64,000 nucleotides of DNA from Marinomonas sp. KMM3893 (GCF_004352855.1 NZ_SJSC01000004.1:1-64000); one strand, 5' to 3'; positions 4,660 to 44,968 are shown, counted from the stretch's first letter. Numbers and translations are program-made. The notes: generated from the sequence alone by a model not told the origin.

Positions 4660-4769
4660 ATTACTTCTTTTCTTAAGGGAGTGAGTTTGGCAAAGCGTTA
4701 TTAGATATTCACACTATCTAAGTATTAAGGAGTTAAAACTCCACATCTAATAAGATGTAAAATTATTGC

Positions 4770-4845
4770 GGGTGTGTAGCTCAGTTGGGAGAGCGTCGCC
4801 CTTACAAGGCGAATGTCGGGAGTTCGAACCTCTCCACACCCACCA
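4770..4845 (+). tRNA. tRNA-Val (UAC)
   Basis: Intact 76-nt tRNA-Val, identical to 265-340. The spacer before it keeps the ACTCCACATCTAATAAG part of the tRNA-like pseudogene of the main array but has lost that pseudogene's 5' half. Confidence 0.96.
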
Positions 4846-14902: not shown

Positions 14903-15025
14903 AACCGAGTCCAGAGCTTCTAATTATACTCTGTAAAATTAAACGCGGCTGACGGTGCTCCTTTCTCATATGGATCATCGTGTATGTATAGTCACGCGCT
15001 CATTATTTGTAAACGAGGTTCCCCC

Positions 15026-16696
15026 ATGCGTGAATCCATGGAATTTGATGTAGTCATTGTCGGTGCCGGGCCAGCTGGGCTTAGTGCGGCCTGTCGCTTA
15101 ATGCAACAAGCGCAGGAAAAGACGATGGAGCTTACTGTCTGTGTTGTCGAAAAAGGTTCTGAAATTGGTGCCCACATTCTTTCGGGGGCTGTTATTGAGT
15201 CCCGTGCTATGGATGAGCTTTTTCCAGATTGGAAGGCAATGGGAGCACCATTGAATACGCCAGTGTTTTCAGATGAGCTTTACCTTCTTAAAAGTGAAAC
15301 GATAGCGCAAAAGCTGCCTAACGCACTGATACCCAAGACGATGCATAACACTGGCCATGGTTTGGATAACTACGTGGTTAGTCTGGGGAATGTATGTCGT
15401 TGGTTGGCTGAACAAGCCGAAGGTTTGGGCGTGGAGATATTCCCTGGCTTTGCGGCCGCTGAAATTCTGTTTCATGAGAATGGACCTTTCAAAGGAAGTG
15501 TTAAAGGTATTGCAACAGGCGACATGGGGGTGACAGCTTCAGGTGAGCAAGGGCCAAACTATATGGAAGGGATGGAACTTCATGCGAAGTACACTCTTTT
15601 TGCAGAAGGTTGCCGTGGTCATCTCGGTAAGCAGTTGATCGAGCAGTTTAACCTCGATATTGAAGCGGATGCTCAGCATTACGGGCTTGGCATCAAGGAG
15701 CTTTGGGAAATTGATCCGAAAAAGCATAGGCCTGGTTTGGTTGTGCATGGTTCAGGTTGGCCGCTTGAAGGCGATACTACTGGAGGCTTCTTCCTATATC
15801 ACCTGGAGAACAACCAAGTGGCAGCTGGTCTCATTGTCGATTTAAATTATACAAACCCGTGGCTTAGTCCGTTCGATGAGTTTCAGCGATTGAAGCATCA
15901 TCCAGTGTTGGCGAATCATCTCGATGGCGGAAAACGTGTGGCGTACGGTGCTCGTGCCATTGCTAAGGGTGGATTTAACTCGCTACCTAAAATGGTATTT
16001 CCTGGTGGATTATTGATCGGTTGCAATGCAGGCACTCTTAATTTCAGTAAGATCAAAGGGACCCATACCGCCATGAAATCGGGCATGTTGGCTGGTGAAG
16101 CAGTGTTTGAAGCCATTGCTGAGGGTAATGAAGGCGGCTCTGAACTGAATAGCTTCAGTAACAAATTTAAGGCGAGCTGGGCTTATGATGAACTGTTTCG
16201 ATCCCGTAATTTTGGACCATCGATGCATAAATTCGGACCGATTCTCGGAGGCGTTTTTAATTTTGTCGATCAGAATCTGTTTGGCGGTAAATTGCCAATA
16301 ACGCTGCATGATAACAAGCAGGATTATGCTCAGCTGAAGCCTGCGGACCAGTGCACGAAAATTAAGTATCCCAAGCCAGATGGCAAGCTAAGTTTCGATA
16401 AACTGTCCTCAGTATTCATCTCAAACACTAATCACGAAGAAGGTCAGCCCTGTCATCTAAAACTGAAGGACTCAAGTCTTCCAATAGTGCGAAACCTACC
16501 TATTTTCGCAGAACCAGCTCAACGCTACTGTCCCGCGGGGGTGTATGAGGTTAATGAAAGAGAATCTGGTGCGTTTTTTCAGATTAACTCGCAGAACTGT
16601 TTACACTGCAAGGCGTGCGATATTAAGGACCCTTCTCAGAACATCATCTGGACGGCTCCTGAAGGTGCTGGCGGACCAAATTATCCGAATTTCTAA
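15026..16696 (+). CDS. Electron transfer flavoprotein-ubiquinone oxidoreductase
   Basis: A 556-aa membrane-associated FAD and 4Fe-4S protein that passes electrons from reduced ETF to ubiquinone. The N-terminal dinucleotide-binding motif is DVVIVGAGPAGLSAA. EKGSEIGAHILSGAVIE and the GGFNSLPKMVFPGGLLIGCN stretch are family signatures. The C-terminal cluster ligands are Cys in RYCPAGVYEV plus three in NCLHCKACDIKDPSQN. I start it at ATG 15026, with CGAGG about eight bases upstream, rather than the earlier ATG at 14984, because the protein then begins like its relatives. It completes the D-2-hydroxyglutarate to quinone chain. Confidence 0.95.
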   Translation: MRESMEFDVVIVGAGPAGLSAACRLMQQAQEKTMELTVCVVEKGSEIGAHILSGAVIESRAMDELFPDWKAMGAPLNTPVFSDELYLLKSETIAQKLPNALIPKTMHNTGHGLDNYVVSLGNVCRWLAEQAEGLGVEIFPGFAAAEILFHENGPFKGSVKGIATGDMGVTASGEQGPNYMEGMELHAKYTLFAEGCRGHLGKQLIEQFNLDIEADAQHYGLGIKELWEIDPKKHRPGLVVHGSGWPLEGDTTGGFFLYHLENNQVAAGLIVDLNYTNPWLSPFDEFQRLKHHPVLANHLDGGKRVAYGARAIAKGGFNSLPKMVFPGGLLIGCNAGTLNFSKIKGTHTAMKSGMLAGEAVFEAIAEGNEGGSELNSFSNKFKASWAYDELFRSRNFGPSMHKFGPILGGVFNFVDQNLFGGKLPITLHDNKQDYAQLKPADQCTKIKYPKPDGKLSFDKLSSVFISNTNHEEGQPCHLKLKDSSLPIVRNLPIFAEPAQRYCPAGVYEVNERESGAFFQINSQNCLHCKACDIKDPSQNIIWTAPEGAGGPNYPNF

Positions 16697-16857: not shown

Positions 16858-17772
16858 TTATTGGGTAGACATTTTTAGAAGCCACTCCCGTAAAGCTGAT
16901 ACAGTAGGAGACTGGTCTTGATGAGGGGTTATATGTAGAGAGTAGTCATATTTTAGTGCATCTACTTTTAATGGGGTGAAAGGTATAACTAATGATCCGT
17001 TTGCAATTTCATCTTCAACGAGACAAGAGGGTACCAACGCAATTCCAATTCCAGCGGATGCGGCTTGGAGTACATGGGAAGTCATTTCGAATTGAGGCCC
17101 AAGACGAATATTGGTTGTTGAAAGGTCATGGACAGCAAACCATTGAAACCAATCATCGGGCCTTGTTGATACTTGTAAAAGCGTGTGTAATCCAGCATCA
17201 GATGGTGTGTTAAAAGGTACCCTTTCGAGTAGTGCAGGACTGACTACTGGTACTAAATAATCCTTGACTAGGTGGTACGATGTCATTCCTGGCCAAGCTC
17301 GACCACCACCACTTATAGCAGAGTCTATTCCTTCTAATTCCATATTAAATTGGCGTACTTTTGCATGTATGTGAACAAGAATGTTGGGGTGCTCAATATA
17401 GAAATCAGCCAAACGTGGCATTAACCATTTTGCAGCGAAGGTTGGTAAGCAGGCAAGGTTAATTGATGTTGCTGTAGTCTTATAGGTATTTAAATTTTGT
17501 GACGCATTGCGTATTCGTTGAAGTCCACTGCTCACTTCTCGCATGTACATTGCACCCGCATCATTCAATTGTAATTGTTTTCCGTTTCGGACAAATAATT
17601 CAACTTCCAGTAAATCTTCCAATGATTGTATGTGCCTGCTTACAACGCTTTGTGTGAGAGAAAGCTCTTTGGCTGCTAGCGTAAAGCTAAGGTTCCTTGC
17701 AGATGCTTCAAAAGCTAATAGCCAAGGCATGGAGGGGGTAAGTCGGCGCTGGTTTGTTGATTTATTAGTCAT
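16858..17772 (-). CDS. LysR-family regulator (GcvA-like)
   Basis: A 304-aa protein. The DNA-binding domain (about residues 13-72) reads PWLLAFEASARNLSFTLAAKEL, then SLTQSVVSRHIQSLEDLLEVELF. The effector domain resembles the GcvA-type subgroup (LACLPTFAAKWLMPRLADFYIEHPN, AWPGMTSYHLVKDYLVPVVSP). It converges with the ETF-QO gene and is the only regulator beside the 2-oxoadipate/D-2-hydroxyglutarate block, so it may control it. It does not share a promoter region with that block, so this link is an inference. Confidence 0.88.
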   Translation of the reverse strand: MTNKSTNQRRLTPSMPWLLAFEASARNLSFTLAAKELSLTQSVVSRHIQSLEDLLEVELFVRNGKQLQLNDAGAMYMREVSSGLQRIRNASQNLNTYKTTATSINLACLPTFAAKWLMPRLADFYIEHPNILVHIHAKVRQFNMELEGIDSAISGGGRAWPGMTSYHLVKDYLVPVVSPALLERVPFNTPSDAGLHTLLQVSTRPDDWFQWFAVHDLSTTNIRLGPQFEMTSHVLQAASAGIGIALVPSCLVEDEIANGSLVIPFTPLKVDALKYDYSLHITPHQDQSPTVSALREWLLKMSTQ

Positions 17773-18103
17773 ATATGTACTCTATAGACCTCTGTCTCAA
17801 TTTTAGAATTTTAGGAAGTTTAAATGTAGTGACTTAAATGTACAATTACTGAAACGCCAGATTTATGCCTTAAATAAAATAGGTATGAATTAAAATAAGA
17901 TAGCGAAATAGCTTCGTGTAAACAATCCACTTTTATTAAATAGCCTCAACGTAACTCATGACCTATTTCGGGATTTTATAAAACCCATCTCCTGCGTCAT
18001 ATGGTGACGCATGCTTTTCACGACTACTCTTTTATTTTCTGTTTCGTCTGTTAGTATCAAAAAGTCAACTGATTGATTTTTGTATTTTAATGGTGGATTA
18101 CAC
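17773..18103. promoter_or_regulatory. Gap at the left edge of the defence/mobile island
   Basis: A 331-bp AT-rich gap. The clearest structure is the inverted repeat TGCGTCA-TATGG-TGACGCA at 17993-18011, followed by TGCTTTTC. It could be an operator, a weak terminator or part of a recombination site for the giant recombinase downstream. GGTGG eight bases before ATG 18104 is the ribosome site of the next gene. Confidence 0.45.
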
Positions 18104-18943
18104 ATGGCTGAAATGAACTTAGGTGAAGTGGTATGTAAGGTGGATCTTGAAATTGAAGGGATAGCTTTTTATGAGAAAGAAGGTGGTGTGCTTGTCTCTG
18201 CGATGGACAGTAGTGGTAATGAAGCTGTTAAACTTATCAGTAAACTATTGGGGGATATTTCGTTTATAGCCAATAGTAACGGTCTCCTGAAGTTAGAAAA
18301 AAAACAAGCAGGCTTCAAACTAAAAAAAGATTGTTTCTCAATTCTAATATTTCCTAAATACTTTAAGATTTTGTATTTTTTCGATGATAAAAACAGAGAC
18401 TTATTTAGTACTGTGCGAAAAATTGTATGTGATGTTATGGATACATCGTTCAAATATTACGGTAAATGCTTTGATACTATTAATAATGCAAAAACTAAGC
18501 TAGACAACTCAGTTTATGATATTGCAGGCGAAAACTGCGTTAAACAAATTGCGAGTTCAGTTGCAACTATACGTGAGCTATCTAAAGGCAAAGAAATTAC
18601 TGTCGAAATTGATGATTATCAACCTATTATCATTAATACAGAAACTGTTCCACACAAGTTAATTAGTAAAATTGATGATAAGCCGCATAATTTAGAACAA
18701 TACGAAATTATAGCAGTAGATAAGAAAAAGAGCGAAACTATGGTGTTGCCGTATACGGGTAAGGGCAGCAAAAAAATAACATTATCCCATGATCAATTCT
18801 GTTTGTTTCGAAAGGAATATGGTTTTGGTTTGTTGCCTGAAGGTCCTTTTTTCGACTTTAAAGTTAAGCAGATTACAGGAGGGAAATACAATTTACTTAG
18901 TTTTAACGTATTTGAAAGTCCGCAAAATCAGTTAGGACTTTGA
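18104..18943 (+). CDS. Uncharacterised protein, partner of giant recombinase
   Basis: A 279-aa soluble protein that I do not recognise. It has no signal peptide or membrane segment. It is rich in Lys and beta-type segments (GVLVSAMDSSGNEAV, FSILIFPKYFKILYFF, KEITVEIDDYQPIIIN), with a central helical part. I start it at ATG 18104 (MAEMNLGEV) because GGTGG lies just upstream; a TTG at 18080 would add eight residues. The next gene's ATG lies two bases past its stop, so the two form a tight operon and probably act together. Confidence 0.7.
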   Translation: MAEMNLGEVVCKVDLEIEGIAFYEKEGGVLVSAMDSSGNEAVKLISKLLGDISFIANSNGLLKLEKKQAGFKLKKDCFSILIFPKYFKILYFFDDKNRDLFSTVRKIVCDVMDTSFKYYGKCFDTINNAKTKLDNSVYDIAGENCVKQIASSVATIRELSKGKEITVEIDDYQPIIINTETVPHKLISKIDDKPHNLEQYEIIAVDKKKSETMVLPYTGKGSKKITLSHDQFCLFRKEYGFGLLPEGPFFDFKVKQITGGKYNLLSFNVFESPQNQLGL

Positions 18944-18945
18944 GT

Positions 18946-21900
18946 ATGATTTCTCAATTACTGAGTAATTGGCCTGAAGAGGGTGTGTCATTTGATCAAA
19001 AGAGGGCCGCGCTTCGTTTTTTTGTCCGAGGTTTACGTGCTGTTAAATACAAGCAAAATATAGAAGAGCCACTATTAAGCGTAGATGCTTTATTCCAGGA
19101 AAGCGTCTCGGCTGAAATTGATTTACATCTGCTGAAAACAAACGTCACAGGAAAATTTGAATCTAGAGCTGTGTCTACTTTAGCAACTATTGATGTTGCT
19201 ACTTACTATTCAGTTGAGCTGAGTAGGGTTCCATTATTAATGCAATCCGCTGTATTTATTTCACTATTTTCCCACAACAATTCACCTCGCGATAGTGTAA
19301 CTATTATGGAGGCAGCTGGAAATATTCGACGTTTGATCACGTCTAGTAGATTAATGATATCTGAAGTTCCTGATGGCTTGGATTTGTTGGAAACATTGGA
19401 ATATGTTGTACATTTGAACATCAAAAGAAATGCAGTCTCGTTTGTTTTTTTTAAACTTGTTAAACAAGGCTGGTCGGTTTTTACTCAGTTAAAAAGTGAT
19501 GTCCGTGCTGACATCATCCCACCGCGAAGAAAGCGACATCACAAGCCTCAGATTCAAACGCAGCCAATACCCTTTTCTGGTAATGAATTAACGATAGAGG
19601 AACCCGAAGAGAGCCAACACATTGAACTAGATGAAAGCTCTGTATTTCCAGTTCGTGCTGCACAGCGAGATTTATTTCGTAATAAAATCATTGAAACCAG
19701 AGAGCAGTTTGGTCTGCTGCTTTGCCCAGTTCGTTTATCATCTCTCGAAGTGCAAGGTGTTCGGAAATGGTTGAGTTCAGCGTCTGGCTCAATATCATCT
19801 GTATTAGCATCATTAGTGATGCTCACTGCGTTGAAAGAGCATGAAATTTTGGGGCTGCATGTTACTAATTTAACGACTGAAGTAGAGCCTCTAATGAGTG
19901 ATGGAGCTGTGTATGGTGTGGTTGATCTTCAAGCACATGTCTACTGGCGTAGAGAGCTTGATGTCCAAAACCGCTTTAGTCCTTCAGAAGAAAACTTACC
20001 TTGGTTAAATAATCATCAGCAATGGTTAGCTTTACCCATCCCTGAGCTTTTTATTGGAATTATATCTGGGGTAGTGCTCCATTCAGATCAATGTACAGTT
20101 GAGACATGGTTGGATCTCAGTAATGAAAAACAAGCAAAGGAGTTTCTTAATCATGCCTGTAGAGAAATTCGAGAAATAGGGCAATTACAAAGGCCTATTA
20201 GTAGAAGGGAGCTTCGTTACTGGCTATTTGCTTGTGTTGCAGATCGGTTCGGACAACATGTTGCGTCGTTAATTTTTGCAAATAACAGTTTTTCTAACTC
20301 GACAAGGCACTACTACATGGCTGCGAGTGCAGAAGATCTTCAGCGGCTCTTTGTACAAGCCATCAACCCATTTACACCAGTTGATATGTCCAGTGCCCGA
20401 GATGTTGATCAAGCAGGGATGGTAGGATCTCGTCTATCTATTTCAGTGGCTCGTTTTAAACAACGATTAGCAAGTAAGGTGAGCGCTTTAAATGAATTGT
20501 TGCTGACAGTTAAAACGGAAAAAGACCTTGAACAGCTAAGATATATTTATAATTTGATCGCAGCTTATACAGTGACCATGTTCGCGTGTGCTACTAGTCA
20601 TCGACGACACAATTCAATTTTTATTGAACACTCTTGTTGGAACTATGATTATTCACAGGTTCTTGTTGCTGATAAGATTTTCTTCGGTGAAAGTGCCGTT
20701 CGAATTATACCCGTTCCAGAAATGTTATCCTCACAAATCAGAAATTCTAAGGGGTGGGTTGAGCAAATTATTAAGCGCTTAATAGCTATACGACATCCTT
20801 TTTCTGAAATATTGATTGCGTCTTTATCCCGCAGAGGCAATACCCCTTTTCTTGGTGTTTGGGTGGGTGAGAATACGTTGACTACAGCTGGAACTTCGCA
20901 AATTTCAATGTGCTTAGGTGACGATTGGACACTTCCCCAAAATTGTATGCGACAGCTTTCTTATCAAGCCATGTTTCAGCAACCCCAATCATCTCAATAT
21001 TTAGATCATCAAATGGGGCATGTTTCATCCGCTCTTAATTCTTTTCAGAACACATCGTTAAGAAGCTTGCATGATGATGAGAAGAATTCACATCGAGACT
21101 TTATTGGGAATAGTTTAAACGAACTTGGTTTTGTGAATTTGAGGCGTACCAAATTTAGTGGCATTGCAAAGCTTGATGCCACTTATTTTTTGCCAGAAAC
21201 AATCAACGGTAATGACACTATAACGACTAAACAATTAGCGACAACCGCTCTAACTAGTGTTATGGCAGAGGTGAAAGCTACTAATAAATCAGTATATGAG
21301 CTTCTTGATGAAAAGCTTGCTGATCAACCATTTATACATGAAGAAGCGTTGAAACAATTAGAAGCCTTAATGATCGATGAGAATGGCAATCAGTTAGATG
21401 ATGAAACCTTTGAGCGTTTACTCAAAGGTGTATATTTCAAGAGCCCAAAAGTTGAAACGGTTTTTCCTTATAGAATGCACATGGCTGAGCATAGTCACCA
21501 AATTCTGTATGCTCAATTTATTGAGCTAGTTGCAGCTCTGTTTAATCAATATGAAGGTCTAGATAATGACTATTTAAAGTCGATATTATTAATATCTCTC
21601 ATATTTGATGGGGAAAATACAGTCGCTGATTTTTTAAAAATAAAGACTGAGAAATCCTTAATCATTGAAAATATTTCCTATAAGAACCATTATTTAACTG
21701 GCGATATTGAGAAGAAGCCTATCATCTTTTCAGGCATTAGTAGTGTGCTATTGATTCTATTGTTGAATAAATCGGATTCAAGAAGTGTAAAGTTCAACAT
21801 TGCACAACTTGATAAATGTCTTATCCTTCTAACTGGCCGAAAGCGTCAAAGCATTGCTGGAAATCTCCTAAACCTAATGCGTGACTTTGTTAATGTAGCT

Positions 21901-24207
21901 TTGCGCGAGCTTCAAGCTAATACCTGGAGTCTGGTTGGCTTGCTTAAACACATTAGTATTAATCCTCGACCAGGTGAAACTGGGGTTCTATTCGGGCTAC
22001 GTCAAGGTACGGTTAAAACGAAACACTTATCTTTTCATGCCTTGATGCGTTTGATATCACCAATACAGTTTTTTACGCTTAACAGTACTCAGGAGCTAGC
22101 CTCTGTCCAAGAGAGGGCATTGGAAAAACGATCCTATAAAACGACTAAGGACAAATCGTTTTACAAAGCGTTTTTTAAAGAGTTACCGCAAGCACTTGAT
22201 GAAGCAGATAACAATGCAAAGATGGGCATAAGAAGCTATTGGAATCATTTGATTAAAGATGGCAAGTCACGATCATCTGTTAGCGAGTTGGTAAATGACT
22301 CCAATTCGCTGCCTGAAATAATAGTATTGATTCTGTCCTGGCTACTTGAAGCGGCTTCTAGACATGGGCAGCGCGATACTGGGTTGCAGATATCGACAAT
22401 AAAAACATATTTATCTACGATTGGTCCTGCGTTGTGTGAGCTATGCTCGAATACATCATTACTATCATTAGACTACGACGACCTTATTGATGTTTATCAA
22501 GGTGTGATTGACATGGGAGAGCCGACTCACACGCAATCCAGATCAAAACGTTTGATGGACTTTCATAAACAATGCCGACGATATTTTCCATTTCCCAAAG
22601 TAGATTGGCAAGATCTGGATGTGCCATTAGTCGATGAAGCAATTACTCGAAATATCATCACGCATGTGGAATACGAAAGGGCGTTTAATCTTCTAGAAAA
22701 TGACCAATATCTAACCCCATCAGAGCAAGAATCTTGTCTTGCTGTTCTCATTATTAGTTATCGACTAATGACAAGACGTGGAGAAACTCGACGTCTAAGA
22801 GTAAACGACTGGTGTGTGCAAAGTGGTCTGTGTTCGGTGCGTAGTAATGTTTTTGGTAGTACCAAGACGGTTAAGGGGAATAGACGAATTCCTTACACTG
22901 TCTTAATGACAACAGATGAGCAAGAGCGAATTCACGGGTTCATTGAGAAAGCAAAGACGCAAAATGGCAATTCTCCATTATTTTGTGATTCATTGTTTCC
23001 AAACCGTATTCGAAGTATGGATAAAACATTCAATCGAGTAACAGAGGCCCTTCAACTGGCAACAGGTGATAAAAGTACGCGTCTTTATGATTGCAGGCAT
23101 ACGGGTATAAACTTTATTTCAACAGCATTGCAATTAAGTGATAGCCAGACAGATCCGATTGCCTTATCCATCAAGCGATGGTTGCCATGCGGTACTTTTG
23201 CAGAGTTTCAAGAGAGTTTTCGCCAAGCGACTATAGGCAACCCATCAACACGTCATGCCTTGTTACCAGCGTTGGCAATGATGGTCGGTCACAGTTCAGC
23301 GACAACCACCATCAGTAACTATATTCACCTGACTCATTATTGGAGATGGCTTGCGATAGAGCGAGAACTTAGATCTCTGAAAACCTTAGATAGCGGCTTA
23401 CAAGCTCTTGTTAAAATGCCTAAAGCACAATTTTTCCGACAGAAAAACAAAACAGGTTTATCTGCTGCTTATTGCATACTCGAAGATTTAATAACAAAGG
23501 GCGCCACAGCAAATCTTATTAGTGAAGAGGGAAGCCACTTTCCAGAACTAGAGTTAAGTGATATTGCGCAAGATACTCTTACTGCGAGGCTGGTATCGAT
23601 CAAAGACATTGAGCGGTCACTTAGAGTGCTGGAATACCTCAATGTGACCTCAGGTAGTAACGGTATTGATCTGAATGGTGAACAGGCCCAGTATGTGATT
23701 GAAAAGTCTGATTTAGAAACCAGCTTTGTGAGTCGTGTTTGGCAAGCCTATCAAGACACGTTAGAGAAAGATGTTGGCTATCGGGCTTTTTCCATTCCAG
23801 CTCGCCTCAATAATGTCGTGTTGCCTGATGCCTATCGTCCAAAAGCCGCTGAAGCATACCTATCTGACCCTGATTTTTGGGGACCCATAAAAGTATTACT
23901 TTCTCTTGATCAAACTACATTAAACCGTTTTTTATCCCTATGGGGGCACGCTTGGGATGCCTCAGACCGAGTGTGTAAAGTACCCGAAAATAAACGAGCG
24001 GAGTGGCAAGCTATTTTGGGGCGATTATCTTGGTATCCAGAGTTCAAGCCACAATCAGAGGTGAGAAGGCATCAGCATGGTATTCTAGTGAAATGTCATG
24101 AGTTAAGACTGCTAAGCAAGAATAGAGAAGAAGAGGGGGTGAGTATGTTGAAGCTAAGTCATGCCTTGTTCTTAATGACGTTACAGCAGAAGCTAGCATT
24201 GAGTTAA
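18946..24207 (+). CDS. Giant protein with C-terminal tyrosine recombinase domain
   Basis: About 1753 aa, roughly four to five times a normal integrase. Residues about 1245-1480 carry the tyrosine recombinase core: Arg1277/1278 in MTRRGETRRLR, Lys1307 in STKTVKGNRR, YDCRHTG with Arg1384 (the usual first His is Tyr), GHSS with His1449, and Tyr1459 in SNYIHL as nucleophile. Residues about 1150-1235 look like the N-terminal core-binding SAM-like region. A second stretch around residues 440-480 (ACVADRFGQHVASLI, then NNSFSNSTRHYYMAASAEDL) recalls a decayed GH..T..Y box, hinting at an inactive recombinase copy in the N-terminal half. The role of the first 1100 residues is unknown. Probably site-specific recombination for a mobile island. 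ATG 18946 is chosen over TTG 18940. Confidence 0.8.
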   Translation: MISQLLSNWPEEGVSFDQKRAALRFFVRGLRAVKYKQNIEEPLLSVDALFQESVSAEIDLHLLKTNVTGKFESRAVSTLATIDVATYYSVELSRVPLLMQSAVFISLFSHNNSPRDSVTIMEAAGNIRRLITSSRLMISEVPDGLDLLETLEYVVHLNIKRNAVSFVFFKLVKQGWSVFTQLKSDVRADIIPPRRKRHHKPQIQTQPIPFSGNELTIEEPEESQHIELDESSVFPVRAAQRDLFRNKIIETREQFGLLLCPVRLSSLEVQGVRKWLSSASGSISSVLASLVMLTALKEHEILGLHVTNLTTEVEPLMSDGAVYGVVDLQAHVYWRRELDVQNRFSPSEENLPWLNNHQQWLALPIPELFIGIISGVVLHSDQCTVETWLDLSNEKQAKEFLNHACREIREIGQLQRPISRRELRYWLFACVADRFGQHVASLIFANNSFSNSTRHYYMAASAEDLQRLFVQAINPFTPVDMSSARDVDQAGMVGSRLSISVARFKQRLASKVSALNELLLTVKTEKDLEQLRYIYNLIAAYTVTMFACATSHRRHNSIFIEHSCWNYDYSQVLVADKIFFGESAVRIIPVPEMLSSQIRNSKGWVEQIIKRLIAIRHPFSEILIASLSRRGNTPFLGVWVGENTLTTAGTSQISMCLGDDWTLPQNCMRQLSYQAMFQQPQSSQYLDHQMGHVSSALNSFQNTSLRSLHDDEKNSHRDFIGNSLNELGFVNLRRTKFSGIAKLDATYFLPETINGNDTITTKQLATTALTSVMAEVKATNKSVYELLDEKLADQPFIHEEALKQLEALMIDENGNQLDDETFERLLKGVYFKSPKVETVFPYRMHMAEHSHQILYAQFIELVAALFNQYEGLDNDYLKSILLISLIFDGENTVADFLKIKTEKSLIIENISYKNHYLTGDIEKKPIIFSGISSVLLILLLNKSDSRSVKFNIAQLDKCLILLTGRKRQSIAGNLLNLMRDFVNVALRELQANTWSLVGLLKHISINPRPGETGVLFGLRQGTVKTKHLSFHALMRLISPIQFFTLNSTQELASVQERALEKRSYKTTKDKSFYKAFFKELPQALDEADNNAKMGIRSYWNHLIKDGKSRSSVSELVNDSNSLPEIIVLILSWLLEAASRHGQRDTGLQISTIKTYLSTIGPALCELCSNTSLLSLDYDDLIDVYQGVIDMGEPTHTQSRSKRLMDFHKQCRRYFPFPKVDWQDLDVPLVDEAITRNIITHVEYERAFNLLENDQYLTPSEQESCLAVLIISYRLMTRRGETRRLRVNDWCVQSGLCSVRSNVFGSTKTVKGNRRIPYTVLMTTDEQERIHGFIEKAKTQNGNSPLFCDSLFPNRIRSMDKTFNRVTEALQLATGDKSTRLYDCRHTGINFISTALQLSDSQTDPIALSIKRWLPCGTFAEFQESFRQATIGNPSTRHALLPALAMMVGHSSATTTISNYIHLTHYWRWLAIERELRSLKTLDSGLQALVKMPKAQFFRQKNKTGLSAAYCILEDLITKGATANLISEEGSHFPELELSDIAQDTLTARLVSIKDIERSLRVLEYLNVTSGSNGIDLNGEQAQYVIEKSDLETSFVSRVWQAYQDTLEKDVGYRAFSIPARLNNVVLPDAYRPKAAEAYLSDPDFWGPIKVLLSLDQTTLNRFLSLWGHAWDASDRVCKVPENKRAEWQAILGRLSWYPEFKPQSEVRRHQHGILVKCHELRLLSKNREEEGVSMLKLSHALFLMTLQQKLALS

Positions 24208-24307
24208 TGTAACGTTAAAAAGACGGCTTGCTCATTGAAAGGAACAATAGCTTTCTTTGCTCATCTTTTCTGGATTAAACTTTATGAATGAGTGGAGGTA
24301 TCTCGAT

Positions 24308-24409
24308 ATGATGAACACTTGGTTAGAAAGAAAACTTGAAGAAAGCTTCCTTTGTTTACTGCTATTGTCTCTTCCTGCTGCTTTCGCGGTTGGCTACTGT
24401 ATTTTTTAA
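24308..24409 (+). CDS. Small membrane peptide (33 aa)
   Basis: A 33-aa open frame begins with tandem ATGs after a strong ribosome site (GGAGG, nine bases upstream). A charged N-terminus (MMNTWLERKLEES) is followed by one hydrophobic segment (FLCLLLLSLPAAFAVGYCIF) up to the stop. It may be a single-span membrane peptide or a toxin-like microprotein. No homology can be claimed. It sits between the giant recombinase and tandem hairpins upstream of hsdM. Confidence 0.4.
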   Translation: MMNTWLERKLEESFLCLLLLSLPAAFAVGYCIF

Positions 24410-24718: not shown

Positions 24719-26398
24719 ATGGAGAAAATCCAGCTCATGGAACCGACAGAAGTAAACGCAGCATCGGCTAAACCTGTAAAAACCCCTTCAGCAAAAAAGA
24801 AACCCACTAAGAAAAAACCAAGCAAAGGCTTTGAAGAAACCTTATGGGATACCGCGAACCAATTGCGCGGCAGTGTTGAATCCTCCGAATACAAGCATGT
24901 TGTATTGAGTTTAGTGTTCCTTAAATTCATCAGTGATAAATTCGAAGCCCGTCGCCAACAAATGATGGACGACGGTCAAGAAGCCTTTATCGAGATGAAA
25001 GAGTTTTACCAGCAAGACAACATCTTCTATTTGCCCGAAGAAACGCGCTGGTCTTATGTAAAAGTGCGTGCCAAGCAAGACGATATCGCGGTGATTATTG
25101 ATTCCGCCTTAGCCACCATAGAAAAGAACAACCCAAGTTTAAAAGGCGCACTGCCAGACAATTACTTCTCTCGCCAAAACTTGGAAGTAAAAAAGCTTGC
25201 GTCCCTTATCGACAGCATTGAAAACATCGACACCCTCGCCAACGAATGCGACACCACAGAAGAAGACCTAGTGGGTCGAGTGTACGAATACTTTTTGGGT
25301 AAATTTGCTGCCACAGAAGGCAAGGGCGGCGGCGAATTCTACACGCCAAAGTCTGTGGTGACCCTATTGGCACAAATGCTCGAACCCTACCAAGGCACAG
25401 TGTATGACCCTTGTTGTGGTTCTGGCGGTATGTTTGTGCAATCTTTGAAATTCGTCAAAGAGCACGAAGGCCGCAGTAAAGACATCGCCATTTATGGGCA
25501 AGAACTTACCTCGACCACCTACAAACTGGCGAAGATGAACTTGGCGATTCGTGGCTTGTCGGGCAACTTGGGTGAAAAGCCCGCAGACACCTTTTTCTCC
25601 GATCAGCACCCTGACTTAAAAGCCGATTACATCATGGCGAATCCGCCATTTAATCTAAAAGACTGGCGCAGCGAATCGGAACTTACAGACGATCCACGAT
25701 TTGCAGGCTACCGTACGCCGCCAACGGGCAATGCCAACTATGGTTGGATATTACACATGCTCTCGAAACTCAGCGAAACCGGCACCGCAGGGTTTGTACT
25801 GGCGAACGGCTCCATGAGTTCGAACACGTCAGGGGAAGGGGAGATACGCCAGCAGCTAGTGGAAAACGACCGCGTAGAATGCATGATCGCTTTGCCGGGG
25901 CAGTTGTTTTACACCACACAAATTCCTGTTTGCTTGTGGGTTATCAGCAAAGACAAAACTGCGAACGCAAGCAAAGGTTTCCGCAACCGCGAAACCGAAA
26001 CCCTATTCATCGACGCCCGTGAAATGGGCTCCATGATCAGCCGTGTACACAAAGACCTCACTGTGGATGATCTCGCGAAAATCGCCGACACCTTCCACGC
26101 CTGGCGCAGCAGCGATGAAGCCTTGAAACAACGCGTGGCAAGCGGCGACTGCAAAATCAGTGAATACCAAGACCTTGCAGGCTTCTGCAAATCCGCCACC
26201 ATAGAAGACATCAAAACCAACGACTATGTACTCACACCGGGCCGTTACGTGGGCGCTGCTGAGATTGAAGACGACGGCATTCCCTTTGAAGTGAAAATGC
26301 GCGAACTCAGCCAAACCCTTTATAGCCAAATGAAGCAAGCGGAAGAGCTTGATAAAGCCATTCGCAAGAATTTAGAGGGGCTGGGTTATGGAGAGTGA
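24719..26398 (+). CDS. hsdM: Type I restriction-modification methyltransferase subunit
   Basis: A 559-aa N6-adenine DNA methyltransferase. After a Lys/Ala-rich leader (about residues 14-36), the N-terminal HsdM helical domain begins at FEETLWDTANQLRGSVESSEY. The catalytic domain shows FYTPKSVVTLLAQML, motif I YDPCCGSGGMF (about residue 230) and motif IV NPPF (about 310). The C-terminus DKAIRKNLEGLGYG fits HsdM. A second in-frame ATG at 24737 is possible. It overlaps hsdS by 11 bp. With HsdS it methylates the host site, and with HsdR it forms the restriction complex encoded about 6 kb downstream. Confidence 0.95.
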   Translation: MEKIQLMEPTEVNAASAKPVKTPSAKKKPTKKKPSKGFEETLWDTANQLRGSVESSEYKHVVLSLVFLKFISDKFEARRQQMMDDGQEAFIEMKEFYQQDNIFYLPEETRWSYVKVRAKQDDIAVIIDSALATIEKNNPSLKGALPDNYFSRQNLEVKKLASLIDSIENIDTLANECDTTEEDLVGRVYEYFLGKFAATEGKGGGEFYTPKSVVTLLAQMLEPYQGTVYDPCCGSGGMFVQSLKFVKEHEGRSKDIAIYGQELTSTTYKLAKMNLAIRGLSGNLGEKPADTFFSDQHPDLKADYIMANPPFNLKDWRSESELTDDPRFAGYRTPPTGNANYGWILHMLSKLSETGTAGFVLANGSMSSNTSGEGEIRQQLVENDRVECMIALPGQLFYTTQIPVCLWVISKDKTANASKGFRNRETETLFIDAREMGSMISRVHKDLTVDDLAKIADTFHAWRSSDEALKQRVASGDCKISEYQDLAGFCKSATIEDIKTNDYVLTPGRYVGAAEIEDDGIPFEVKMRELSQTLYSQMKQAEELDKAIRKNLEGLGYGE

Positions 26399-27728
26399 GT
26401 GGCCGTTACAACCATTAGATAGTTTAGTCACGATTCATGACTCAAAAAGAAAACCTATAAAAAAATCAGAGAGAAAAGCTGGTCCTTATCCTTATTACGG
26501 TGCATCAGATATAGCAGATTATGTTGATAGTTATGCCTTTGATGGGCTTTATCTTCTTCTCTCTGAAGATGGTGATAACTTAAGAACTAGGAATACCCCA
26601 ATTGCATTTACGGCAAGCGGTAAATTTTGGGTTAATAATCACGCTCATGTATTACAAGGATCTGATGATTTAGATACCATTTTTTTATGTTATGCATTGC
26701 AGTATGCAGAAATAGATAGCTATATTTCTGGTTCGACGAGACCTAAAATCACTCAGACAGACTTAAAAAAAATTCCTGTTAGAGCTCCTAGTATGAAAGT
26801 TAGGCATGCAATTGCGGAATTTGTATATGACTTTGATAACAAAATCTCCCTTAACCGCCAAATCAATCAAACCCTAGAACAAATGGCGCAGGCCTTGTTT
26901 AAATCGTGGTTTGTGGATTTTGATCCTGTGATCGACAACGCTTTAGATGCAGGCAACCCCATTCCAGACGCCTTGGCCGAACGTGCCGCATGTCGCCAAG
27001 ACGCTCGCGCCAGCGATGACTTTCAACCTTTACCAGATGATGTACGACAACTTTTCCCCAGTGAATTCGAAGAGAGTGAACTTGGGTGGATTCCGAAAGG
27101 GTGGAATGATGTAACGCTTCATGATTTAGTCGAATCAAAGTCTGTTACTTATCCTCTTAAAAGTGTTAAGGAAGTTGTGTTCTTAAATACTGGAGATATT
27201 GAAAATGGCCAATTTTTACACAGAAATATCTCTAAAGTAGACGGTTTACCAGGGCAAGCAAAAAAATCCATTAAGGAAAAAGATATTTTGTTTAGTGAAA
27301 TACGCCCAAAAAATAAACGCTTTGCCTTTGTTGATTTTAATTCAGAGCAGTATGTTGTTTCTACAAAATTAATGGTTTTAAGAGCTAAAGCTGGAATCGA
27401 ACCAGAGCTGCCATATTTCTTACTGACATTAGAAAAAACAACAGATGAGCTTCAGCGTATTGCAGAATTACGATCAGGTACCTTTCCACAAATAACATTT
27501 TCTGAACTGGCGTTTATTAATTTTAGCCTGCCATCAAACATGGCTTTAATTGAGAAGTTTGTTTCTCAAACATTAAAGCCTTTTTATAGGAGAGTATCTC
27601 AGTTAGCAGTCGAAAATAGTTCGTTAGAGTCACTTCGTGACACCTTACTCCCCAAACTCATTTCCGGTGAGTTACGTTTGGATTCTGTCGAAGTTGAACA
27701 GGCCAAAAGCCTGCTTGATGGTGAGTAA
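26388..27728 (+). CDS. hsdS: Type I restriction-modification specificity subunit
   Basis: A 446-aa protein with two target-recognition domains, about residues 1-145 and 225-400. The central conserved helix (KISLNRQINQTLEQMAQALFKSWFVDFDPV, about residues 155-185) and the C-terminal one (SLRDTLLPKLISGELRL) act as spacers. Each TRD reads one half of a bipartite DNA site. The TRDs are visibly richer in A and T than the conserved central part (26840-27110), as expected where recognition domains have been swapped by recombination. The recognition sequence cannot be read from this. Confidence 0.93.
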   Translation: MESEWPLQPLDSLVTIHDSKRKPIKKSERKAGPYPYYGASDIADYVDSYAFDGLYLLLSEDGDNLRTRNTPIAFTASGKFWVNNHAHVLQGSDDLDTIFLCYALQYAEIDSYISGSTRPKITQTDLKKIPVRAPSMKVRHAIAEFVYDFDNKISLNRQINQTLEQMAQALFKSWFVDFDPVIDNALDAGNPIPDALAERAACRQDARASDDFQPLPDDVRQLFPSEFEESELGWIPKGWNDVTLHDLVESKSVTYPLKSVKEVVFLNTGDIENGQFLHRNISKVDGLPGQAKKSIKEKDILFSEIRPKNKRFAFVDFNSEQYVVSTKLMVLRAKAGIEPELPYFLLTLEKTTDELQRIAELRSGTFPQITFSELAFINFSLPSNMALIEKFVSQTLKPFYRRVSQLAVENSSLESLRDTLLPKLISGELRLDSVEVEQAKSLLDGE

Positions 27729-27747
27729 AACGAGACAGTCAATGGGC

Positions 27748-27787
27748 AATACAACGCCAAATATAGAAGACTATTTGGTGTTGTATT
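27748..27787. terminator. Long stem-loop after hsdS
   Basis: AATACAACGCCAAATA pairs with TATTTGGTGTTGTATT: 16 bp with one G-U pair and an 8-nt loop. No U tract follows, so it may be a terminator variant, an RNA-stability element or a scar at the edge of the inserted three-gene block. It is by far the strongest structure in this gap. Confidence 0.6.
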
Positions 27788-27847
27788 ACCGCCGGTAATT
27801 GAATAACGTTTTTTCGCTATTGCGGCAAGATGTGCGCAGGCTAGAGT

Positions 27848-29251
27848 ATGTATCTTAATCAATTTTTTACTGACTACGACGAGACCATCACCCAATCTTT
27901 AAATATTGACCCATTAGGCATGACCATGATTTGGTCGAGCTTGGGTCAAGCCATTTTCAATAATCGTGTGAGCTCAATTTCGAATGATGTGCGCAATTAC
28001 ACGCTCAATCTCGTGCATCATTATGTGATAAAAACCTTAGTCGACAGTGTTGATGCCAAGTTAAGCGGCGAGCTAGAGAAGGTCTATGGACAAATAGACA
28101 GCTTGGCTTTTAAGCAAACGTGTTTGATATTTCTCGAAAACGTTTTTGTCTTTTCCATGCTGGCCGCAGAATCGGCAGAAGATGTGCAAACACAAGGCAT
28201 TTTGGGGGCATCAAAAGCACGCTTAAAGATTTCTCAAAATACGACCAAACGCATACCCAAAGCACCCCTTATTTTCACCCGAGACTCGCAAGAGCAGCTT
28301 TTGGTTCGACAGCTGACCTTAGGTGTCAGTGGCCGATATAAAACCCCTTTTATCGAATTATCCTTTTTTGACAAAGCGCTTCGTTATCATCAACCCCACT
28401 CTATTCCACAATGGGAAAACGCCCAGGCGTTTATTGTCTCTCATAAGGGGTTGCGCCAATTGGCTGAGACATCTGTTTCGTTTCTAAAAGCATTCATCAA
28501 ACAAAACCATTTTAAACCCCGTGTGAGTTGGCAAGACATTCCCGAAGCCATAAAGCGCCAGTATGTTGAATGCTTTGCTTCTTCTGAAGTGGTGGGAAGT
28601 TACAGCAAAGACTTTTGGTTGAAGGTGACGGCGCTGGATCAAAAAGCCTCTGGTTCGCTTTATCAGGCCATTAGTGAGTTGGGCAGTGACCATTCTTCTG
28701 CTCAAGTGTATTTTGAGCGCGCTCTTCAGCTAGAAACCGATGATCAAGAAAAGAAGAGGCTCAATGATATTTGCCAAGTGGAGCCTTTTCTCGCGGAGTG
28801 TGAGCTGTTGTTTACCGTATTGATGAGTCAAAAGCTTCAGACAGAGAAAGAGGTTTACGATACCTACTGTGGTTTAAAACGAAATGTGAGTTCAATCATC
28901 ACGCTTGCACGAGGTTTAGCGACTCTTGATGTGAAATGGTCAGATTCTGCTAGAAAGCGTTATGAAACATTGCTCGAAATGAGAGAGCTGGAAGGTAGTG
29001 ACGCACAGGCGAATATGACGGTGCTGGTGGATAAACTACTCCAATATCACCACAATATTATGGCGCAGAGAGGGCAGAGCCCTTGGGTCGAAAAAGATCG
29101 TCAGGGAAATTATCGGTGTCATGTGGCGCTTCGAAGTCTTCCCGAGCCAGAGAGAAGGCCGTATAAATCTTGGTATCATAGGTATTATCTTGACCAATTT
29201 AGCCAGTTAATTCGCGGCTTAGAAGGAAAGGGTCATGACGCAAACATTTAA
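27848..29251 (+). CDS. Uncharacterised protein of an RM-embedded three-gene cassette
   Basis: A 467-aa protein without recognisable domain, signal peptide or membrane segment. It is mainly alpha-helical by eye, with a long N-terminal helical part (TLNLVHHYVIKTLVDSVDAKLSGELEKVYGQID) and a C-terminal region rich in aromatic and basic residues (PERRPYKSWYHRYYLDQF). It overlaps the PLD-like gene by 17 bp, so the two are co-translated. By position it is a partner of the PLD-like nuclease and the SNF2-like helicase that follow, all placed between hsdS and hsdR. Confidence 0.7.
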   Translation: MYLNQFFTDYDETITQSLNIDPLGMTMIWSSLGQAIFNNRVSSISNDVRNYTLNLVHHYVIKTLVDSVDAKLSGELEKVYGQIDSLAFKQTCLIFLENVFVFSMLAAESAEDVQTQGILGASKARLKISQNTTKRIPKAPLIFTRDSQEQLLVRQLTLGVSGRYKTPFIELSFFDKALRYHQPHSIPQWENAQAFIVSHKGLRQLAETSVSFLKAFIKQNHFKPRVSWQDIPEAIKRQYVECFASSEVVGSYSKDFWLKVTALDQKASGSLYQAISELGSDHSSAQVYFERALQLETDDQEKKRLNDICQVEPFLAECELLFTVLMSQKLQTEKEVYDTYCGLKRNVSSIITLARGLATLDVKWSDSARKRYETLLEMRELEGSDAQANMTVLVDKLLQYHHNIMAQRGQSPWVEKDRQGNYRCHVALRSLPEPERRPYKSWYHRYYLDQFSQLIRGLEGKGHDANI

Positions 29252-31202
29252 AATGACGGATGCCTTAAAGCAGCAAGTTCAAGATTTAGGGACGCTAAAA
29301 TATGCTTGGTTTACCTCTTTTAATCTAAATGTGGACTTTTTCGAACGCCACGTTTTGTCTACGCTGTTGGAAATGGAGCCTCCTCGAAGTCGGATTGATT
29401 TTGAGCTGATGCAGCAAAAGCTTAATGGTTCCGTATTAGACAATAGAAAAGCGGGGCCTAGTATTGATGTTAAAGTGTTTGCTGATCAGAGAATGTACGA
29501 TGCCAATGACGTTAAGCGCACGGCAATAGAGGTGTATGGCGTTGCTCCGGTTTCCATGACTGGCGTGAGGAAAAGTCGTCTGGATAAGAGTTCTTTATTC
29601 CACCCCAAGGTGATCTTTCTTCAGGACGATCAGGGAAAAGCTATTTTAGGGGTAGGCAGCGCCAATTTAACGCAAAGTGGTTGGTCAACAAACCAAGAAG
29701 TCTTTTCTTTTCATCAGGTCGAATGTGCCCATCAAGCAGAGGCAATACGATGTTTTTTTAAACCACTCTTCAAATTTAATGCTATCAAACACCCATTTAA
29801 GTTTGGAAAAACGTTAAGAAAGGCGCCAAGCCCATCCGATTGGTATTTTGTGCATACCTTTTTGAATGCGGAGCGTGGCTCTGAACACACTTCTCTTCTT
29901 GGGCATCTTTTGAATGAGCCAAATACAAAGGAACTTGTTGTCTGGTCGCCTTACTTTCCGAGAGACTTAGCTGGGTTTATAGACCGCCTTCGAGGCATCC
30001 ATTCCAGTGAGGAGTTGACCGTGTGTTTGATTCCAGATTTGGTTGAAAATAAACAAATGCGTACGGAGTGGTCTTCTTCCTTAAATGACCAGATTAATGA
30101 TCAGCAATTACGGTTTTATCGAAACCCTGTTCAGCCAGATGAACGCAGCGAGCTATGCCACGCTAAGGTCTGGATGACGGAGCACAAATTGGCTATTGGT
30201 TCTTGGAACTTTACGGCTCCGGGTTCCAATATTGCACTTGAAGAGGGCGAATCTGGTCATGTGAATGTGGAGGCCGGTGTGGTGTTTAACCATACCCAGC
30301 CATTAACGGATGTGCTGAAAGAGTCTTTGACTATTGGTGAAGGTAACTTCATGGAAAGCGTAGAGCTAAATGCGCATGCCCTTGAGGTGGCTGAACTTTT
30401 GCCTGTCAATGTGAGAGTGTCATTTGATTGGGAAACACTGACTTACAATTTAGCCGCTGAAAAGGTGGATAAGAGCCAAGTTTTACAAAGCGTAGAAATA
30501 CGCTTGCCTGATATTATCGGGCCCATATCTTTCGTCTTTGAGACGGATGGCGCTGCTCTTGAACTTAATAAAACGTTGACGGTTGAACCAAGCGAATTAC
30601 TGGTTAATCACACTTATGAGTTGATCATAAACAGCGATCAACGATACCGTTGTTTCATTGTTGAACACAATAGTGTCATGCGTCGTGTGGAGCAGTTTGA
30701 CTCGTTAGATGAAATTTTTGACTGTTTAATCTCTGGTCAACCGCTTGTGAATCACCCAAATGCCTCATTGCGAGAGAGCATTTTAAACAATGACCACGAT
30801 CTGCTCATTGAGCAAGAAGCAGGCTCTTTGGGCTCCCAATCCGCCCCTTCGGCGTTAAGTTATTTCCGAATGTTTCAAGCGATGCATGAATACGAGAAGC
30901 GCATTCAGTTGTCGAAGTCAGACGTCATGATTGAGCAGTATGGCTTTGTCATTCCTGGGTGTCTCATTGAGATGAAGAACAGAATCGAGACAGAGCTAGA
31001 CCGAGAGATGAATGTGTTCAATTGGTATATGGCGCAGGAGTTTAATCGATTAATTAAGTTGGCTAAGTGTAAAGCGAAAGCACCAAGCTTAGAAAAGCGC
31101 TTAAGTTCGCTTAGTCTCCGCGACTTGGATAAAGCAAAGGACATAGGCAGTCATAAATATCGTAAATTGATCAAGAAAAAGAGTGATTATGTCACTATCT
31201 AA
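29235..31202 (+). CDS. Phospholipase D-like nuclease
   Basis: A 655-aa protein with two PLD (HKD-type) motifs. The first is HPKVIF (about residue 122) with GVGSANLTQSGW about 20 residues later; the second is CHAKVWMTEHKLAIGSWNFT (about residues 307-323). Two such motifs form one active site through a phospho-histidine. In defence loci these proteins are usually nucleases (for example DrmC of DISARM). The C-terminal third is unassigned. It overlaps the gene before and the helicase after, indicating a tight operon. The family is secure; nuclease activity is inferred. Confidence 0.82.
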   Translation: MTQTFKMTDALKQQVQDLGTLKYAWFTSFNLNVDFFERHVLSTLLEMEPPRSRIDFELMQQKLNGSVLDNRKAGPSIDVKVFADQRMYDANDVKRTAIEVYGVAPVSMTGVRKSRLDKSSLFHPKVIFLQDDQGKAILGVGSANLTQSGWSTNQEVFSFHQVECAHQAEAIRCFFKPLFKFNAIKHPFKFGKTLRKAPSPSDWYFVHTFLNAERGSEHTSLLGHLLNEPNTKELVVWSPYFPRDLAGFIDRLRGIHSSEELTVCLIPDLVENKQMRTEWSSSLNDQINDQQLRFYRNPVQPDERSELCHAKVWMTEHKLAIGSWNFTAPGSNIALEEGESGHVNVEAGVVFNHTQPLTDVLKESLTIGEGNFMESVELNAHALEVAELLPVNVRVSFDWETLTYNLAAEKVDKSQVLQSVEIRLPDIIGPISFVFETDGAALELNKTLTVEPSELLVNHTYELIINSDQRYRCFIVEHNSVMRRVEQFDSLDEIFDCLISGQPLVNHPNASLRESILNNDHDLLIEQEAGSLGSQSAPSALSYFRMFQAMHEYEKRIQLSKSDVMIEQYGFVIPGCLIEMKNRIETELDREMNVFNWYMAQEFNRLIKLAKCKAKAPSLEKRLSSLSLRDLDKAKDIGSHKYRKLIKKKSDYVTI

Positions 31203-33897: not shown

Positions 33898-34025
33898 TAA
33901 AAGAGTATTTCAAAAACGATGTAAAATATCGCTTACGACGAGCGGTTAAAAGGCTTGCCTGGCGTAGTGTAAAGTGAGACTGTAAATACGCAGTACGAAC
34001 AAGGACATAGAGGGAATTTTTAGGC

Positions 34026-37000
34026 ATGGTTGCAGTGGTTCGCGACATTAAATTTACCGAAGCAAGATTAGAGCAAGCTATTATCGAGTTACTCGGTGAG
34101 CAGGGCTATCCCCATGTTCTGGGTCAGGACGTGGCGCGAAACGAGCCGTCTCAAGTATTGATTCTGGACGATCTACGACGTTATCTGTCTAAGCAGTATC
34201 AGCAAGACGGCATTACGCCCAGCGAAATCGAATCCATTATTCGTCAGTTACAGAGTTTACCCGCCAGCGACCTTTACCGAAGCAACAAAACCTTTTGTCA
34301 TTGGTTAGCAAATGGTTTTTTGTTTAAACGAGAAGACCGTAACCAAAAAGATTTGTACATTGAGTTGATCGACACACAGCAACTTAATGCCGCTCTCGCT
34401 CAATTATTCAACGTATCAGAGACGTTGGCCGACGAGGCTGATTTACAACAAGTCGCTGATCCTGTGCCGCCTTATTTCCTTTCTCCGTCGAACGTATCTT
34501 CTGACTCGAATGTTTATAAATTAGTGAATCAACTTGAAATAGAAGGCGTCGATGGGCAAATGCGCATTCCCGATGGCATTTTATATGTGAACGGTTTGCC
34601 GTTGGTCGTGTTTGAGTTTAAGTCTGCGGTACGAGAAAAAAGCGCTTCGGTTTATGATGCGTGGAAACAAATTTGTATTCGCTATAAACGCGACATTCCA
34701 CAACTCTTTGTTTATAACGCCTTTACCATCATCAGTGATGGCGTGAATAATAAGCTTGGTAACCTGTTTGCGCCTTACGAATATTATTATGCGTGGCGCA
34801 AGGAAACTGGCTTTGAATCTGCCGAAAAAGACGGCATTAATTCCCTTTACACCATGATCCAGGGTTTGTTCAACAAGACGCGATTATTGGACGTGGCGAA
34901 GAACTTTGTCTTCTTTCCCGACACCACGAAAAAAGAAATCAAGGTGTGTTGTCGTTACCCTCAATATTATGCGGCTCGCAAGCTGTATTTTAATATTTTA
35001 AAGGAACGCAAGCCCCAAGGCTCAGGTAAGGGCGGCACTTACTTTGGTGCGACAGGCTGTGGCAAAAGCTACACCATGCAGTTCTTGTGTCGTTTATTGA
35101 TGAAGAGCATCGACTTTGAAAGTCCCACCATTGTCTTAATCACGGATCGTACCGATTTGGACGATCAGCTTTCTAAGCAGTTTGAAGACGCTACTAACTA
35201 CATTGGTGACGACACCATTGTGTCGGTCAGCAGCCGTGAAGATTTGCGGGCTAAGTTACAAGGTATCAAGAGTGGTGGCGTGTTTCTGACGACCATCCAT
35301 AAGTTTACCGAAGACCTGCAATTACTCTCTGAGCGCACCAATATCATTTGTATTTCAGACGAAGCTCATCGTTCTCAAGTGAATCTCGACAAAAAAACCG
35401 TGATCAAATACAGCGAAGGCAAAGCCATTTCGATGAAAGAAACCTACGGCTTTGCCAAGTATTTGCACGACTCTTTGCCGAACGCCACTTATGTAGGTTT
35501 CACCGGCACGCCCATAGACGCCACGCTGGATGTATTTGGCCAAGCCATCGACAGCTACACCATGACCGAAGCGGTGAACGACGAAATCACGGTTCGCATT
35601 GTCTACGAAGGCCGCGCCGCGAAAGTCTTTTTGGATAATAGCAAATTAGCGGAAGTTGAAAAATACTACGACGATTGCGCCGCAGAAGGCTCCAGTGAAC
35701 ATCAAATAGAAGAGAGTAAAAAAGCCTCGGCCAATATGAATGCGATTCTGGGCGACCCTGACCGCATTGACGCCTTGGCGAAAGACTTTGTTTTCCATTA
35801 TGAAAGCCGAGTGAACGAAGGTTCTTCTATTAAAGGCAAAGCCATGTTTGTCTGCTCGAACCGTGAGATTGCCTATGATTTTTATAAAGCGGTTAAAGCA
35901 CTGCGACCAGTTTGGTTTGAAAAACGCCAAACCGCCGATGAGGTTGAGTTAACTGAGAAAGAACAAAAAGAGCTTATGTCTCTGGAACGGGTGCAAATGG
36001 TAATGACCCGTAACAAAGATGACGTAGCCGAGATGTATCAGCTGGTCGGGACAAAAGATCATCGCAAAGAACTGGATCGCCAATTCAAAAATGCGAAATC
36101 CAATTTCAAAATCGCCATCGTAGTGGACATGTGGCTTACTGGGTTTGACGTGCCAGAGCTAGATACCATTTACATTGATAAGCCGTTACAGAAGCATAAT
36201 TTGATTCAAACTATTTCTCGGGTAAACCGTAAGTTTGAAGGCAAAGAAAAAGGCTTGGTGGTGGATTACATCGGCATTAAATCTCGTATGAATCAAGCCT
36301 TGGCCATGTATTCCAAAGCCGACACAAGCAGTTTAGAAGATGTGAATTTGTCGGTCGTGGAAGTAAAAAACCACTTGGATTTACTCAAGCAAATGTTTCA
36401 CAGCTTTGATGTTTCACCGTATTTTAGTGACGAGCCACGTTTGCAATTGGAGTGTTTAAACCAAGGGGCCGAATTCGTCTTACAAACCAAAAAGGGTGAA
36501 AACCGTTTTATGGGCTTGGTTAAGCGTTTAAAAGCCGCTTACGATATTTGCTGTGGCAGTGATCGTATTGATCAAACCGAACGCAACCTGATTCATTTTT
36601 ATATCTCCGTGCGGTCTATTGTCTTCAAATTAACCAAAGGCGACGCCCCCGATACTGCGCAAATGAATAACCGCGTAAGAGAACTAATCGCCGAAGCACT
36701 TAGAGCGGATGGGGTGGAAGAGATTTACACCATTGGCGAAGACAAAGCCGACGCCATCGATATTTTCGATGAAGAATATTTAGCGCGGATCAATAAAATC
36801 AAACTGCCTAACACCAAGATTCAACTGCTGCAAAAAATGCTGCAAAAAGCCATTAGTGAATTTAAAAAAGTGAACCAAGTGAAAGGCATCGACTTTTCCT
36901 CACGTTTTGAAGCCTTGGTAGAACAATACAACGAACGCCGAGAAAACGATGAACTCAACGGCGAAGAGTTCGACACCTTTAGCCAAGAAATGACCGACAT

Positions 37001-44966: not shown

Positions 44967-44968
44967 AA

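Follow-up and report, generated by a model that had tools for sequence, protein, structure and literature searches.

A giant chain of tyrosine recombinase units facing an arm-type integrase on a putative defence-carrying island of Marinomonas

Introduction

The locus described here raises the question of what the greater part of a giant tyrosine recombinase (YR) is made of, and what this protein may do together with the small gene that is coupled to it. The window, by which we mean the whole stretch of DNA that was analysed, is 64,000 nucleotides long and comes from Marinomonas sp. KMM3893 (GCF_004352855.1 NZ_SJSC01000004.1:1-64000). An earlier note on this DNA had reported a chain of 1753 amino acids (aa) with a complete catalytic set at its end, an upstream gene of 279 aa coupled to it (referred to here as the partner), and about 1100 N-terminal residues of unknown nature. 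The coordinates and lengths of both genes were confirmed (Table 1), and the partner stop codon (18941-18943) is separated from the giant ATG by 2 bp. An alternative start, TTG at 18940, would make the giant 2 aa longer, and at the same junction in relatives the two genes overlap by 4-14 bp. No model in Pfam, NCBIfam or PADLOC matched the giant or the partner, and none of the NCBIfam family-level models matched the giant or its split relatives; the Pfam Phage_integrase cut-off was passed by a 37%-identical giant relative, in the equivalent of the C-terminal YR region. We found no earlier description of this family in the open-access literature.

Table 1. Features of the locus, with positions counted from the first letter of the window; those in the last line are given by locus.
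Feature	Position	Strand	Remarks
LysR-type regulator, host flank	16858-17772	-	etf-LysR block conserved in three giant-free relatives
Approximate left island boundary	17838-17843		last base homologous to island-free relatives
Palindrome TGCGTCATATGGTGACGCA	17993-18011	+	about 90 bp before partner; candidate operator or recombination site
Partner gene, no known family	18104-18943	+	279 aa; Marinomonas orthologues 28-40% identity
Divergent (swapped) cassette	18104-19440	+	partner and giant residues 1-165
Giant tyrosine recombinase	18946-24207	+	1753 aa; ATG 18946, stop ends 24207
D1, probable degenerate YR domain	19699-20391	+	residues 252-482; Y457 invariant; no Arg/Lys/His set
D2, YR domain	20401-21156	+	residues 486-737; nucleophile not conserved
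D3, complete YR domain	22288-23379	+	residues 1115-1478; R1277, K1307, R1384, H1449, Y1459
Putative membrane ORF after giant	24284-24409	+	41 aa; conserved in G254, cargo differs beyond
Type I RM and PDC-M27 cargo	24719-37337	+	hsdM 24719-26398, hsdS 26388-27728, hsdR 34026-37337
PADLOC candidate PDC-M27A/B/C	27848-33897	+	between hsdS and hsdR, enclosed by type I RM
Hhe-type large helicase defence protein, cargo	37403-43042	+	
Gene overlapping integrase	43121-43768	-	215 aa; homologue at same position in G098
Arm-type integrase (PF12167 and PF00589)	43761-45044	-	convergent with giant; sole subfamily member in genome
Approximate right island boundary	45674		homology to three relatives resumes
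Conserved gene of about 290 aa in other genera	L032 3404-4303; L037 7097-7966; L040 11253-12119; L041 11299-12180; L044 9276-10145

Results

Domain composition of the giant recombinase

The C-terminal domain D3 contains Arg-I, Lys, Arg-II, His and Tyr in the order and spacing that are right for the tyrosine recombinase superfamily. The catalytic residues were found to be those listed in the earlier note, and the Arg that it had left unnamed is R1277. In an alignment of 30 D3 sequences, R1277, K1307, R1313, R1384, G1448-H1449 and Y1459 were invariant throughout, in agreement with an earlier alignment (n = 21); as the catalytic residues are unchanged in 21 and then in 30 relatives, the presence of this site is not due to chance. 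The His of the HxxR motif is replaced by Tyr1381 in the giant from the window, and it is present in 19 of 21 relatives. When compared with solved structures, the D3 profile matched 3nkh (2e-12) and also Tn-type Int, XerA, and Cre.

The N-terminal region is largely explained by a further YR domain, D2, and by a probable degenerate one, D1. D2 is the clearer of these (residues ~486-737, with 'MGH' at 690-692) and had been overlooked in the earlier note. Residues R553, K577, R586, R669, G691, and H692 are kept in all 37 D2 sequences, and the D2 profile matched XerC-like 4a8e (6e-8), XerD (1.5e-6) and XerA (2e-5). At the nucleophile position, no Tyr is found from H+8 to H+11 in 25 of the 37 sequences and Ser is present at H+12 in 32. 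As judged from these sequences, D2 has the YR fold, and catalytic activity is not expected because the catalytic Tyr is not conserved. A decayed box that had been proposed at residues 440-480 does exist and forms the end of D1 ('FANNSFSNSTRHYYMA'), where Y457 is invariant in 28/28 sequences, but it lacks the GH. The D1 profile found no match in the PDB; in hhalign comparisons, which were weak but in register, its first part aligned with the region around Arg-I in D3 and its last part with box II of D2. On the basis of these weak profile alignments, D1 is probably a third, fully degenerate YR copy. AlphaFold gave pLDDT values of 31-32 for D1-D2 and the partner, with two input sequences (that of the window and one relative).

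Comparison with M. vulgaris gave dN/dS values of 0.19 for D1, 0.14 for D2 and 0.07 for D3, which are rough values, as synonymous sites are near saturation; D1 and D2 were at about 0.14-0.27, and the overall range of values was 0.07-0.29. These low values indicate that D1, D2, and D3 are all under purifying selection and that none of them is drifting. The giant is read, from its sequence, as a covalent assembly of YR units in which D3 is intact, D2 is disarmed and D1 is probably degenerate. The suggestion of an ancient tandem duplication with one dead copy was borne out in that extra YR copies are present in the N-terminal half, but there are probably two of them and they are not decaying.

Relatives and fusion history

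The closest named relative, from M. vulgaris A79, shows 65% identity along the whole chain, and a search of genomes of the same order revealed full-length Marinomonas relatives in G098 (38%) and G293 (34%), with more distant relatives spread over many families of this order. A profile search detected the N-terminal half of the giant in 13 of 369 sampled gammaproteobacterial genomes; no relatives were found in viral contigs or in phage records. Two gene formats were observed, viz. a single chain of ~1750-1920 aa, or a split pair of ~790-860 and ~730-1150 aa. The gene break of seven split pairs corresponds to giant residue ~733-738, whereas in L034 (539+1238 aa) it lies at residue ~477, and L134 too has its break between D1 and D2. 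As these splits in other Gammaproteobacteria fall at domain borders, the giant is a fusion of recombinase genes, and fusion and fission describe its history better than a simple tandem duplication.

In the close relative G254, the giant (contigs C22/C21; loci L050 and L049) is interrupted near residue ~512 and again near ~1326 by an IS3-family transposase. This disruption is a recent inactivation, and the broken copy indicates that the giant is dispensable in that strain. An independent insertion at the same locus in G254 was considered and rejected, since the flanks are 94-100% identical and point to shared ancestry.

The partner gene and the divergent cassette

The partner, as judged by detectable similarity, is a lineage-specific gene. 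Only three relatives, all of them Marinomonas (M. vulgaris, G254, and G098), yielded an orthologue, while a fourth Marinomonas, G293, has in the same position a gene of 336 aa with no detectable similarity to it. Many distant giants are coupled to a different small upstream gene (158-415 aa); some of these genes are interrelated and none is related to the partner. A PDB profile search with the partner and the small genes of the split type gave nothing significant. The earlier note had treated the two genes as a pair and had counted homologues without the partner as evidence against its reading, which is borne out in part: this gene is absent from G293 and from all distant relatives, where another gene or none takes its place, but it is kept in the three Marinomonas. 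Just upstream, G098 and M. vulgaris carry a gene for a WYL-domain regulator.

In comparison with G254, the partner and the N-terminus of the giant show 33-65% nucleotide identity, between a left flank (including the LysR gene) at 94-100% and a right flank at 79-95%. The divergence has sharp edges, and the G254 partner is nearer to that of M. vulgaris than to that of the window. The partner and the N-terminal part of the giant thus act as a single exchangeable cassette. The palindrome that precedes the partner is retained in M. vulgaris, and in G254 a change in one arm is matched by a change in the other (ACGTCA..TGACGT); no convincing second copy was found in the window.

In other genera, a gene of ~290 aa without a Pfam match converges with the single-chain giant from its downstream side, at a distance of 14-34 bp (Table 1); it is a possible counterpart of the partner.

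The island in the window

The region from about 17.84 to 45.67 kb constitutes an island of ~28 kb, with the partner-giant pair at its left end and the arm-type integrase at its right. The giant is found where the conserved gene order of the host ends, and the cargo downstream of it is different in G254. No attachment (att) repeats were found at the two island boundaries, and neither tRNA nor tmRNA genes were detected near 17.8 or 45.7 kb. A 10-bp match between 17824 and 45078 was discounted as an att repeat, as it lies within conserved coding DNA. No clean empty site was found; the island-free relatives G416, G409, and G419 share the left flank only.

Some further features of this region are recorded here in their own right. 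The PDC-M27A/B/C genes (PLD protein and SNF2-like helicase) within the type I RM operon form an unusual composite defence locus. A sequence of 49 bp at the left edge of the island (17856-17904) is found in three places in G403 with 88-90% identity. To the right of the island, umuD (46311-46757) is intact, and umuC (46757-48027) is split into two overlapping ORFs, an IMS part of 289 aa and an IMS_C+DUF4113 part of 134 aa, which indicates that it is probably frameshifted. In the window, the ETF-QO gene (14984-16696, 570 aa) is full-length, whereas relatives that share the etf-LysR block have in its place only a ~330-bp remnant or a short ORF (164 aa in G254). Lastly, repeated and clustered tRNA-Asp(gtc)/tRNA-Val(tac) genes are present at 28-834 and 4583-4845.

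Pairing of the giant and the integrase in different loci

We surveyed 29 giant loci for the presence of an arm-type integrase, and 23 of these could be assessed. An integrase located downstream of the giant and convergent with it was present in 20 of the 23, at a distance of 0.1-81 kb, where ~1.6% per locus is expected by chance; the exceptions are L047, L030, and L045. Two more convergent cases (L118, L144) fall outside this count, and G292 contains two giant-integrase units in tandem. The catalytic residues of the integrase are invariant in 20/20 sequences, and integrase distances are correlated with those of D3 (Mantel r 0.71, p 2e-4) by a statistic that ignores host relatedness. Phage-defence cargo is often present between giant and integrase. 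The defence genes found beside the giant include Fic and type I RM (G098), MkoA-like and others (G254), BREX (G293 and G315), and a type I MTase with PDC-S06 (G350).

Comparison with known recombinase systems

GInt and SE islands both encode several YRs and a small protein, and all of the core genes that have been tested are needed for recombination (PMC5385486, PMC10214605). The module of the strand-biased circularizing integrative elements (SE; intA-tfp-intB-srap) resembles the module described here in having several YRs, one YR fold without the catalytic set and a small auxiliary protein, and in its location at one end of a cargo-bearing gammaproteobacterial island; the sizes are also similar (545+614+671 aa vs 1753 aa for the giant). 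However, SE has three genes instead of one fused chain, its small protein is encoded downstream and not upstream, and the facing arm-type integrase is an additional component of the island in the window. A profile search (SE-Pda04Ya311 proteins, pAQU1) detected no homology, the best value being that for IntA (E=0.02). SE are further marked by imperfect terminal inverted repeats, a 6-bp spacer in attS and a strand-biased circle; no repeat pair was found at the two boundaries here. GInt (ginABCD; Genomic Island with three Integrases) likewise has three YR-type proteins, one of them without a catalytic Arg, and a small protein, all encoded at the 5' ends of site-specific islands, whose cargo can reach 70+ kb and includes defence genes in E. 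coli (PMC5385486, PMC10121019). Its genes are separate, its small protein is of the HLH type and its 3' end is AT-rich without an integrase, whereas here, in a comparison by description only, a single fused ORF is found with an arm-type integrase at the far end.

GMT (Gamma-Mobile-Trio; GmtX/Y/Z) islands, as described in two papers that cite Mahata 2024 (PMC12039261, PMC12715929), are also defence-rich gammaproteobacterial islands marked by recombinase genes. The GmtY model NF040693 (441 positions) had no match in the genome of the window, and the whole NCBIfam scan, in which the models were not picked out singly, returned no GmtX or GmtZ match. The IntY/AlpA islands (I55 type, phage defence elements) share an arm-type/P4-like integrase, defence cargo and the lack of conjugation genes, but they are located at tmRNA/tRNA genes with direct repeats, neither of which was seen at the borders here, and their descriptions name no giant YR. 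RIT (recombinase in trio) and Tn554 (tnpABC) also encode cooperating YRs together; by description (PMC10214605), these are separate genes of ordinary size, and no convergent integrase is known for them. The giant module is best read as analogous to the multi-recombinase islands of the GInt, SE, and GMT kinds, while it is not SE by sequence and not GMT by the GmtY model.

Discussion

The reading that we favour, to which we attach slightly more belief than doubt, is that the partner-giant pair forms the recombination module of the ~28-kb defence-carrying integrative island. According to this proposal, D3 would cut and join DNA at the island ends, and D1 and D2 would most likely bind DNA or have an architectural role within the synapse. 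During excision and integration of the island, the giant would work together, or alternate, with the arm-type integrase, and the variable partner and the giant N-terminus may supply site or regulatory specificity.

The main alternative, which we consider unlikely, is that the giant is itself cargo: the arm-type integrase would move the island, and the giant-partner pair would be derived from YRs but act in regulation, stabilisation or defence. Most giant islands contain a complete canonical integrase, and defence islands with a single integrase are known to be excised by that enzyme alone, e.g., by IntY in the case of I55 (PMC12595487). A repressor can also arise from the YR fold, as in the case of MrpR of SPbeta, and two relatives carry WYL regulators upstream. 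The sharp divergence of partner and N-terminus would then reflect an arms race or switching of repressor specificity. However, regulators usually lose the catalytic residues, which in D3 are all kept in 30/30 sequences, and the constant, convergent placement relative to a single integrase subfamily suggests a core function for the element and not exchangeable cargo. A role for the pair as its own small transposon, similar to SE or Tn554, that has landed in or beside integrase islands appears to us improbable. Multi-YR transposons of similar total size do exist (SE core genes, PMC9345347), and the split-type module is compact and sometimes only 0.1-1.2 kb from the integrase; but the same integrase subfamily recurs in the same relative orientation in many families, no terminal repeats surround the unit, and no further copies of the giant were found in the genome of the window. 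A chance fusion of decaying integrase genes without present function, for which the disrupted copy in G254 could be cited, is very hard to credit, being largely refuted by conservation, viz. residues that are invariant across 30-37 sequences and dN/dS values of 0.07-0.29.

The presence of the giant and its facing integrase on defence islands points to a way, not yet named, in which such islands could be moved between bacteria. In its widest and only tentative form, which we think rather less likely to be right than wrong, the proposal of a recombination module would extend to a family of defence islands, so far without a name, that is widespread in Gammaproteobacteria. These islands would be moved by two facing modules that form a mixed recombination complex, one being the giant, with a single active YR unit, two inactive ones and a partner that confers specificity and can be exchanged, and the other the arm-type integrase.

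How 'integrase-only' defence islands move has been stated to be an open question (PMC10121019). A giant recombinase facing an arm-type integrase would provide a hallmark for such islands, and the pair could be used to locate their ends and cargo. The giant may represent a natural counterpart, in one chain, of the multi-recombinase complexes of GInt and SE, and point mutations in it could separate what active and inactive subunits contribute.
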